Assembly (NCBI RefSeq): GCF_000020145.1
Contig: NC_010644.1
Location: forward strand, 1,426,001-1,490,000
DNA: 64,000 nucleotides
Direction: 5' to 3'
Source: Elusimicrobium minutum Pei191
Lineage (GTDB): Bacteria > Elusimicrobiota > Elusimicrobia > Elusimicrobiales > Elusimicrobiaceae
The translations under genes and the position numbers were made by a program. Below are positions 1-39,331 of this stretch, one piece after another. A model generated the notes under the pieces. The model did no database searches and had not been told where the DNA came from. It saw nothing but the letters and a program-made list of their open reading frames with translations. Position 1 is the first letter of the stretch, and every line of letters begins with the position of its first letter.

Positions 1-1361
1 GTTATGCCAAGTTCAAAAGTATGTTTTTCAAATCCGCCGTTACGTATGTTTGACGTGGTTTTATTAAACGAATAGTTAAAAGTAGGCGTAAAGCCTAAAA
101 TATTTATCTGCCTGTTAAGCAAACGCACGTCAATCCCGTAAGAATTTTCTATACGTTTTTTTATTTCATAACTAAAATCTTGAATCCAGCCTCTCTTTGT
201 TTTTGAGGATGAATAAAAAGGCTCCGCATACAAAGATATGCCCAAGGGCAGCTCGGTTCCTAAACCTACTCCGTATCTGTAAATGTCACGGTCAGTCCAT
301 CTGTTTTCGGTTCTTATAAAATTGGCCGAAGGCTTTAAAATAATATATGTTTTGGAGTTTATACCTATATAAAGCGAAGGCATTACTAAAACGCTGTGCC
401 CGTCAAAATGTTTATGTATGTCCTGCTCATACTCATTTTTCTTTAAAGCGCCGCTTAACCCAATTCCCAGACGGCGGGTAAGGTCATAACTGAAATCCGC
501 TATAGGGCCGTAGCTGTTTAAAAACCCTTTCCCGCCGTACCAAACACGCTCGGCCGAGGCGTATGCGCCCGCGCTTCCGCGCTTAAAATTATAAAGGGGG
601 CCTGTGGAAAACGAAAGGGAATATATATCAAATTCTTTACCCGCAAAATCGGAAATGCCGCCGCTTAAAGTGCTTTTTAAACGCAGGCTTCTGTTTAGCC
701 TTAAATAATTTTCTATACCCGCGTAGCCGCTAAGCCCTATGGAAGAACGCTTTTTTTCCAACTCTCTGCACATGGGGATAATCCAACCCCCGAAATCAAC
801 TTCTATACATTCAATTTGAGCGCCCGAAACATTGTTAATATTATTTGTAGGCGCAATGCCCAAATTCAAATAATAATCCCACCTTTTGCGGTAGCGTATT
901 TGGTAAAGAAAATAGCCTATTTTTTGTTTAACTTCCAAAGGTAAATCTCTTGAAGCCCACACCAGACGGAAATGATAATCCGCCTTTTCGTTGCGGCCTG
1001 TTTCAAAATATAAAAGGGCAAGTTCTAACCTTACGCGGGAAAGAGAAGGCTGGTTTCTGAGTATCCTTCTAAAAATCCACTCGGCTGTGGCAAAGTCTCT
1101 TTTTTGCATGCTTGCCATACCCAGCAAAAATTCAATCTGTGTTTTTTGTTCATTATTAAAAACTTTGGGAAACAACTCCAAAAGCAGGGTGACGGCCTCC
1201 TCCGTTTTCTTAGCGGAAACAAGTTCTTCGGCTTTCTCGATATTACGGTCCATAAGGTAAACGGGATCGTCAAACAAATATTGCGCGCGGGCCGTAGTAA
1301 GCAGAAAAAAACAAAAAAGCGCCGTAAAAAGGCGCTTTTTTGTTTTTTTGCCGGGAAACAT
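1..1361 (-). CDS. Slam-like (DUF560) outer-membrane beta-barrel protein, 3' end beyond window
   Basis: An open frame runs without a stop from ATG at 1361 to the window edge (453 codons). Residues 1-26 form a signal peptide: lysine-rich n-region, Leu/Phe core, ARA cleavage site. Residues 30-135 are helical and repeat-like (AEELV.., EAVTLLLELFP, ATAEWIFRRIL, ARxELALLYFE-like), as in TPR domains. From about residue 150 the sequence alternates in beta-strand fashion (YYLNLGIAPTNNINN, then many Gly/Tyr-rich strands) to a final visible THTFELGIT-type strand. TPR plus barrel, with the NNINN motif after the repeats, is the plan of Slam (surface lipoprotein assembly modulator), the type XI translocon. 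Length fits the family, so only a few residues are missing. It begins 19 nt after the stop of an MntP-like gene. Family call is by eye; another TPR-barrel protein is possible. Confidence 0.62.
   Translation of the reverse strand, partial: MFPGKKTKKRLFTALFCFFLLTTARAQYLFDDPVYLMDRNIEKAEELVSAKKTEEAVTLLLELFPKVFNNEQKTQIEFLLGMASMQKRDFATAEWIFRRILRNQPSLSRVRLELALLYFETGRNEKADYHFRLVWASRDLPLEVKQKIGYFLYQIRYRKRWDYYLNLGIAPTNNINNVSGAQIECIEVDFGGWIIPMCRELEKKRSSIGLSGYAGIENYLRLNRSLRLKSTLSGGISDFAGKEFDIYSLSFSTGPLYNFKRGSAGAYASAERVWYGGKGFLNSYGPIADFSYDLTRRLGIGLSGALKKNEYEQDIHKHFDGHSVLVMPSLYIGINSKTYIILKPSANFIRTENRWTDRDIYRYGVGLGTELPLGISLYAEPFYSSSKTKRGWIQDFSYEIKKRIENSYGIDVRLLNRQINILGFTPTFNYSFNKTTSNIRNGGFEKHTFELGI
1305..1349. 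terminator. Perfect 19-bp inverted repeat, terminator-like, inside signal-peptide codons
   Basis: Arms 1305-1323 and 1331-1349 are exact reverse complements with a 7-nt loop. Each strand has a GC core (GCGCC/GGCGC) followed by a T-run, so it reads as an intrinsic terminator both ways. On the minus strand it lies 32-76 nt after the stop of the MntP-like gene and covers codons 5-19 of the Slam-like gene. Confidence 0.7.
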
Positions 1362-38175: not shown

Positions 38176-38227
38176 CAAATTTTAATTTTTTTTGAAAGGC
38201 CGTAAACCCTTTTATTAGTCCAAAAAA

Positions 38228-38253
38228 TAAGGGAGGTTGTTTATTCCTCCCTT
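38228..38253 (-). terminator. Terminator after the TbpB-like lipoprotein gene
   Basis: GGGAGG/CCTCCC stem with a 9-nt loop; the minus strand continues TTATTTTTT. Confidence 0.78.
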
Positions 38254-38278
38254 TATCTTTATAAAAACTAACTGTTTT

Positions 38279-39331
38279 CTATTTTTTAACTCCGAAAGCC
38301 CCGCTTACCACAGGCCTGAACCCGGCGCCGTTATACCCTTGGAAATTTATGTTAAAAATACCCAAAGCCTCGTCAGGGATTTTCCCGTCCTCACCGTAAA
38401 AATTGCCTTGAAAGCTTGATGTATAACTTCCGGTAGATTCATACTTTGAATCAATGCCTGAAGGCGTTGACGTAACTTTCAAACTTCCGCCCGAATTGTT
38501 AAAAGAACCGTCCGCCAAATTCAGATTTTGCGAAGTATTGTCCGTTTCAAAACTGTACCATTTGTGACCGTCAACATTTAAATCCATAGAGGCGCTTACT
38601 TTTTGGTCTTTGAAATTAGCGCTTAAAGTGATGCCGCCGGTTAAGTCAGCGTAACCTGCCGCCGTTTCCGGGTTAACTCCGTTATCTTTCATTAAAGTAA
38701 CGCTGCCTAAAACATTACCTTTAAAGCTGTGATTGGAATCGTTATTGTTAAGGGCTGTTAAATCAGGTTTTTTGGTTGAGTCGGCAATTACAAAAGCGTC
38801 TGTAAAAATATAATTTCTGTCATAATGTGTGCCAACGGCAGAGTTATTAATATTAGCGGTTACAACCTCCCTCCAATAACCGAAATCACCGTGCTTAAGT
38901 CCCATTTTAGCGCCGCCTACGGCAAGTTTATTTTTGGCGGTATAAACAACACTTCCGCCCGTTGAAATAGCGGATGTGCCGCTGAAATCGGAAGTAAAAA
39001 CAAAAGCCGTTAAAGGATAGCTTGATAAATTGTCTTTTTGAAAAATAAGAGGAGTGCTCATTGTTATAAAGGCAACATCGCCGTTTGCATCCAGCGTTAC
39101 GGTCGGGGCCAGTTCTTTGGCGTAAACCGCTATTCCGCCTTTACCGTCAGTTGTTGTAGTGCTGTCCAAAGACATAATTTGCGTACCGTTAAGCGTAATA
39201 GTGTCACCGGCGGGCAGCGCGTTTAAAACAGAAAAAATTTGTGCTGAAACCGGTTCGCTTTTACTGTCGCACGCCGTTAAAACAAAAGCCCCGGAAAGTA
39301 AAATAAATAAAATTTTTGTAATTTTTGACAT
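38279..39331 (-). CDS. Lipoprotein with TbpB/HphA-like C-terminal barrel, candidate Slam cargo
   Basis: A 350-residue lipoprotein: signal peptide with lipobox LTAC, Cys21. An N-terminal handle-like region (about 50-190) includes LKHGDFGYW (about 146-154). A C-terminal eight-strand barrel region (about 215-350) follows, with the family-typical end FQGNFYG...EALGIFNI...SGAFGVKK. These features match the transferrin-binding-protein-like group (TbpBBD, PF01298) that includes TbpB, HpuA and HphA, whose surface display depends on Slam translocons. A Slam-like gene lies at 1-1361. Residue +2 is Asp. GGAGG precedes the ATG. It stands alone with its own terminator. Ligand unknown. Confidence 0.68.
   Translation of the reverse strand: MSKITKILFILLSGAFVLTACDSKSEPVSAQIFSVLNALPAGDTITLNGTQIMSLDSTTTTDGKGGIAVYAKELAPTVTLDANGDVAFITMSTPLIFQKDNLSSYPLTAFVFTSDFSGTSAISTGGSVVYTAKNKLAVGGAKMGLKHGDFGYWREVVTANINNSAVGTHYDRNYIFTDAFVIADSTKKPDLTALNNNDSNHSFKGNVLGSVTLMKDNGVNPETAAGYADLTGGITLSANFKDQKVSASMDLNVDGHKWYSFETDNTSQNLNLADGSFNNSGGSLKVTSTPSGIDSKYESTGSYTSSFQGNFYGEDGKIPDEALGIFNINFQGYNGAGFRPVVSGAFGVKK

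Follow-up and report, generated by a model that had tools for sequence, protein, structure and literature searches.

The surface lipoprotein assembly modifier Slam, the outer-membrane protein of the type XI secretion system (T11SS), has been reported from Proteobacteria (PMC5449769, PMC8406197, PMC12282271). Slam proteoliposomes let unfolded TbpB pass, Skp acting as holdase (PMC9090332), and in T11SS cargo the C-terminal barrel acts as export determinant and the N-terminal part as effector (PMC9100927). In open-licence papers, we did not find Elusimicrobiota in the literature on DUF560 or T11SS, and found them together with "surface lipoprotein" only in unrelated work, although an earlier mention elsewhere is possible. 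Here we describe a Slam gene and a candidate cargo gene of the beetle-gut bacterium Elusimicrobium minutum Pei191, a distant relation of the Proteobacteria, both within a 64,000-nucleotide stretch of its genome (contig NC_010644.1, positions 1,426,001 to 1,490,000; hereafter the window, to which all unprefixed coordinates refer). The candidate very likely encodes a surface lipoprotein with the TbpB/HphA/fHbp fold, known from the proteins with which meningococci capture transferrin and haem, and the window's Slam very likely exports it by the type XI route.

Among the closest described systems, HphA is secreted and carries no lipid; it has a haem pocket and works together with a TonB-dependent receptor. 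The window cargo shares with HphA and hemophilin (PMC8406197 for the latter) the layout of a single lobe made of a handle and an eight-strand barrel, but it has a lipobox and lacks a conserved His, and no receptor could be found in the genome. With the C-lobes of TbpB and LbpB (PF01298, PF17483) it has in common the lobe fold, a predicted lipid anchor and a Slam exporter in the genome, whereas it comprises one lobe instead of two and has no PF01298 match, no TbpA/LbpA-type receptor and no vertebrate host; with 350 aa, one lobe and no TbpA partner, it is not TbpB proper. The single-lobe or barrel surface lipoproteins fHbp, HpuA and NHBA of Neisseria likewise combine a handle and a barrel, but bind factor H, haemoglobin and heparin, respectively, and show 10–20% identity in structural alignments. 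NilC, a T11SS cargo of the invertebrate-gut mutualist Xenorhabdus nematophila with a role in colonisation and not in iron uptake (PMC9100927), is also a lipoprotein with an eight-strand C-terminal barrel; it differs in its N-terminal domain, and nilB and nilC lie near each other, whereas 37 kb separate cargo and Slam in E. minutum. Finally, a "transferrin-binding protein-like solute binding protein" of the alphaproteobacterial Novosphingobium plasmid pLA3 is matched by our Elusimicrobiota cargo profile (E 9e-6), but its gene adjoins Slam.

A conserved lipoprotein gene

The cargo gene is an open reading frame with an ATG start, located exactly where an earlier note on this DNA had placed it, in a genome consisting of a single contig (1,643,562 bases). 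The five motifs listed in that note (LTAC, LKHGDFGYW, FQGNFYG, ALGIFNI and GAFGVKK) are all found at the claimed places. The features of the gene are as follows.

38279..39331, reverse strand: candidate Slam/T11SS cargo gene for a single-lobe TbpB/HphA-fold lipoprotein of 350 aa (open reading frame, orthologs, models, PDB alignments)
39269..39331, reverse strand: signal peptide and lipobox (LTA, then C), residues 1-21, with Cys21 as lipidation site and Asp at +2 (sequence; Cys21 invariant in orthologs)
39269..39280, reverse strand: lipobox LTAC, residues 18-21
38735..39268, reverse strand: N-terminal linker and beta-rich handle, residues 22-199, the expected ligand-binding part (model secondary structure; spanned by PDB alignments)
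38873..38899, reverse strand: handle motif LKHGDFGYW, residues 145-153, the best-conserved block of the Elusimicrobiota cargo family
38282..38734, reverse strand: predicted C-terminal eight-strand barrel, residues 200-350 (models, PDB alignments)
38393..38413, reverse strand: FQGNFYG, residues 307-313
38348..38368, reverse strand: ALGIFNI, residues 322-328
38282..38302, reverse strand: C-terminal GAFGVKK, residues 344-350 (sequence and family alignments)
38223..38262, reverse strand: terminator-like hairpin 3' of the stop codon, AAGGGAGG, a 9-nt loop and CCUCCCUU, followed by AUUUUUU (fold z -3.04)

The protein begins MSKITKILFILLSGAFVLTAC / DSKSEP, where the slash marks the lipobox boundary; signal peptide and lipobox were judged by inspection and not by a signal-peptide predictor. 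A scan of genome contigs with the ortholog alignment recovered two congeners. Full-length orthologs of about 40% identity are present in two other Elusimicrobium genomes (both metagenome-assembled, one named Elusimicrobium sp.). In all three genomes the cargo gene directly precedes purB-purA-rpsF-ssb and has the same orientation, and Cys21, GDxGYW and the C-terminal FGVK are invariant among the three proteins. The full-length orthologs, the shared placement and these invariant residues show that the open reading frame did not arise by chance but is a conserved gene. Slam-linked cargo proteins from Elusimicrobiota and from an Erwinia plasmid, moreover, share an FGaKK-type C-terminus. The strong hairpin and U-run 3' of the stop codon make a separate, monocistronic transcription unit probable; a consensus terminator scan gave no match at this 3' end, its loop limit being 8 nt against the actual 9.

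Predicted fold and family membership

We built AlphaFold models on the three-sequence alignment, the 16-member family alignment not entering the modelling. The model of the window cargo (pLDDT 46.9, pTM 0.45) retrieved the TbpB C-lobe first in Foldseek (E 8e-5, prob 1.00), with TbpB chains at ranks 1-13, and in VIA-align 49 of 50 rows were Slam cargo or proteins of the same fold (Z up to 10.0), the exception being OmpX. A better model was obtained for a congener ortholog (pLDDT 68.8, pTM 0.76). It shows exactly eight C-terminal strands (residues 152-299) behind a beta-rich handle, and its best Foldseek matches (E 1e-5) were known Slam/T11SS cargo or proteins of that fold. All 50 best VIA-align rows of this model were HphA/hemophilin, TbpB, fHbp, HpuA or NHBA (Z 12.1-14.8, compared with a quoted background of best Z 7-8 for models without a clear relative), in alignments of about 200 residues that cover the full lobe. 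HphA/hemophilin gave the best rows (Z 13.6-14.8), and fHbp, HpuA and NHBA reached Z 12-13. The earlier note had named the lack of an eight-strand C-terminal barrel as the observation that would speak against a TbpB/HphA-like protein; with eight strands in the ortholog model and Slam cargo as PDB matches, that assignment holds. On these models, the predicted structure is the handle followed by a C-terminal eight-strand barrel that is characteristic of Slam/T11SS cargo.

Family models recorded this relationship only in part. The window cargo had no match to PF01298 (TbpB_B_D; gathering cut-off 26 bits) at E 10. A congener ortholog aligned end to end with the same profile (positions 1-126 of 126), with scores that stay under the cut-off (17.6 bits when the genome was searched and 15.7 when the protein was scanned). 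The PF01298 search proposed earlier was negative for the window protein. Similarly, the NCBIfam model slam_lipo (NF041636; cut-off 80 bits) did not match the window cargo and gave two weak, below-cut-off matches to its relatives (best E 0.026). With a single sequence as query, Pfam, NCBIfam, PHROGs and PDB sequences yielded chance matches only, the cargo-alignment profile retrieved nothing but noise from PDB sequences (Gly-rich linkers and antibodies), and tblastn of the cargo against plasmids found no match. The Elusimicrobiota cargo profile, in addition to the Novosphingobium protein, weakly matched an Erwinia "Slam-dependent surface lipoprotein" (E 0.003), and seven residues are invariant across the 16 aligned cargo sequences. 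In sum, the window cargo has the structural and genomic characteristics of T11SS cargo while failing the Pfam and NCBIfam cut-offs, and is notable for its phylum and for having no detectable receptor partner.

Slam in the window and its link to cargo

The exporter gene, which the earlier note had described as Slam-like and about 37 kb away, proved to be real.

1..1361, reverse strand: Slam/T11SS outer-membrane protein with N-terminal TPR_Slam and SlipAM (DUF560) barrel (domain scans; stop codon 13 bases outside the window)

In the protein scan, SlipAM (PF04575) scored 76.0 bits (cut-off 22) and TPR_Slam (PF24575) 38.5 bits (cut-off 35.2), which by sequence identifies the predicted product as a Slam with an N-terminal TPR part and a SlipAM barrel. 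A genome search with PF04575 (77.9 bits, cut-off 22) returned it as the only SlipAM match, and the 38279-39331 protein was the only cargo candidate detected for this single Slam. Its closest plasmid-borne relatives include proteins of Novosphingobium and Acinetobacter that are annotated "surface lipoprotein assembly modifier", the nearest being the Slam of Novosphingobium pLA3; the best match is 29% identical across 90% of its length (E 1e-32).

Outside Elusimicrobium, the cargo gene lies directly beside Slam in the Elusimicrobiota genomes examined, in neighbourhoods where Slam comes after one to six cargo genes in tandem. When the window cargo was the sole query, the top three matches from other genera (in genomes G014 and G010) each adjoined a Slam gene. 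Conversely, a hidden Markov model (HMM) made from 13 Slam-adjacent proteins only retrieved the window cargo alone among all open reading frames of the window (E 9e-14, residues 136-350), and hhalign of this HMM against the window cargo gave 98.8% probability. Across 340 Elusimicrobiota genomes, the cargo profile was found in 15 and Slam in 35, and all 15 cargo genomes carry Slam (Fisher P 6e-17); the same held for all six cargo genomes among those held out from model building (P 1.3e-7), in each of which cargo adjoins Slam, and at genus level (P 1.7e-5), although these P values ignore shared ancestry and, the genomes being related, overstate independence. Pairwise identities of Slam and of cargo are correlated over 14 genomes (Mantel r 0.86, P 1e-4). 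Between G319 (L093), which belongs to another family, and G011/G099 (L036/L091) of the Elusimicrobiaceae, Slam is 73% and cargo 62-68% identical, far above other pairs, which suggests joint horizontal transfer of the pair within the phylum. For the window, the presence of cargo relatives directly beside Slam in other Elusimicrobiota lends strong comparative support to the pairing that the earlier note had proposed, and we strongly infer that this particular cargo belongs to this particular Slam.

Proposed export and alternative explanations

The fold, the lipobox, the presence of a Slam and the family-wide linkage to Slam are established computationally; the export steps for the window cargo are all taken from the established Slam mechanism. 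The protein would leave the cytoplasm by Sec, be lipidated at Cys21 of the observed lipobox and be delivered to the outer membrane. There, its unfolded C-terminal barrel would be recognised by the TPR-plus-barrel Slam and would cross the outer membrane first, followed by refolding. The cargo would then stay tethered outside the cell by its lipid, with the handle as the presumed ligand-binding part.

Several points weigh against this reading. The model of the window cargo itself is of low confidence, the better one being that of a 37%-identical ortholog, and no curated family model exceeds its cut-off. Cargo and Slam are about 37 kb apart in E. minutum and are unlinked in both congeners too, and the co-occurrence statistics come from related genomes. 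By the E. coli Lol rule, Asp at +2 would favour inner-membrane retention, though both congeners have Asn; this residue (39266-39271, reverse strand, with the lipidated Cys) may matter for Lol sorting, above all in E. coli. The adhesin role considered below, finally, is argued mainly from the absence of a receptor.

An improbable alternative is a Slam-exported haem or metal scavenger with the same single-lobe layout as HphA/hemophilin, which passes its ligand on to a receptor. The best PDB rows of the ortholog model were indeed holo-HphA (Z 14.8 and 14.2), marginally above TbpB and fHbp, but Z values this close cannot discriminate. The genome has no match to either domain of a TonB-dependent receptor (Plug 0, PF00593 0), and among the 15 cargo-bearing genomes 10 have no PF00593 match and only three have one over the cut-off. 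Nor is any His conserved among the three orthologs, one of which contains no His at all. Because no receptor was found here and few occur in cargo-bearing genomes, a relay of iron or haem is unlikely and the ligand is probably not passed on for import; the haem or metalloprotein ligand suggested in the earlier note is not supported.

About equally improbable is an ordinary lipoprotein that faces the periplasm or sits in the inner membrane and has the same barrel fold without being exported by Slam. The distance from Slam, the probably monocistronic transcription and Asp at +2 would fit such a protein, but elsewhere in the phylum its relatives adjoin Slam, nearly all of the best PDB matches to the fold are Slam cargo, and the genome's one Slam has the window cargo as its only detected candidate. 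A chance resemblance of an unrelated small barrel (OmpX-, lipocalin- or porin-like) with coincidental motifs, to which the OmpX row of the low-confidence model and the lack of an above-cut-off family model might point, is strongly disfavoured and was rejected, as the Foldseek and VIA-align rows of both models agree on Slam cargo (prob 1.00, Z up to 14.8 against a background of 7-8) and the protein has profile homology to Slam-adjacent proteins.

Returning to a Slam-exported surface lipoprotein, we favour, by analogy with NilC, a surface ligand-binder or adhesin that would serve attachment or ligand coating in the insect gut, an adhesin role taken alone being a tentative proposal that is slightly more likely to fail than to hold. 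Its partner would be a glycoprotein or glycan of the host, fibre, or cells nearby. Transferrin binding is implausible for a symbiont of the insect gut; the literature mentions E. minutum alongside the beetle Pachnoda (PMC2613244).

A pair of exporter and cargo in Elusimicrobiota, the fold of the cargo having been tested on models, would extend the Slam route to another phylum, so that it is not confined to Proteobacteria. It would also separate the export machine from TonB-dependent nutrient piracy, as its role here seems to be other than iron piracy, and would point to a candidate surface protein in a gut symbiont whose dealings with its host have been little studied. With its seven invariant residues, the cargo family offers a compact test case for Slam recognition. 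We further raise the speculative and rather doubtful idea that Elusimicrobiota hold a T11SS branch that has a cargo family to itself and works without TonB-dependent receptors, serving as an adhesin or surface-coat system, and that in the part of the family with tandem arrays (up to six cargo genes beside one Slam), no lipobox and a conserved uncharged hydrophobic N-terminal MTTIIISILAALGIGGGVMLAS followed by a Gly-rich stretch, the proteins exported by Slam may have a new kind of anchor.

Further observations on Slam and cargo loci

In G014, six tandem divergent cargo paralogs (402-469 aa) lie beside one Slam (L031:6840-15366), with a seventh copy elsewhere in the genome at L096:6429-7802; the locus looks like a diversified surface-antigen array. 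The Slam-adjacent cargo proteins of L031, L032, L033, L034, L090, L092 and L094 have an uncharged hydrophobic start, MTTIIISILAALGIGGGVMLAS, and a Gly-rich linker, and no lipobox Cys. N-termini of this type have no Lys/Arg n-region, unlike an ordinary signal peptide of the signal peptidase I or II type.

Slam remnants occur in two genomes without detectable cargo, as a C-terminal fragment only (G029:C1:132237-132668) and as a fragment with two stops (G094:C39:4212-4751), as if Slam and cargo had been lost together. Weak SlipAM matches in other classes (E 1e-5 to 1e-10) may be other barrels. Two tandem genes for small membrane proteins (1381-1956 and 2008-2565, both reverse strand), whose products we take to resemble MntP-type manganese exporters, adjoin Slam in all three Elusimicrobium genomes (L037, L038).
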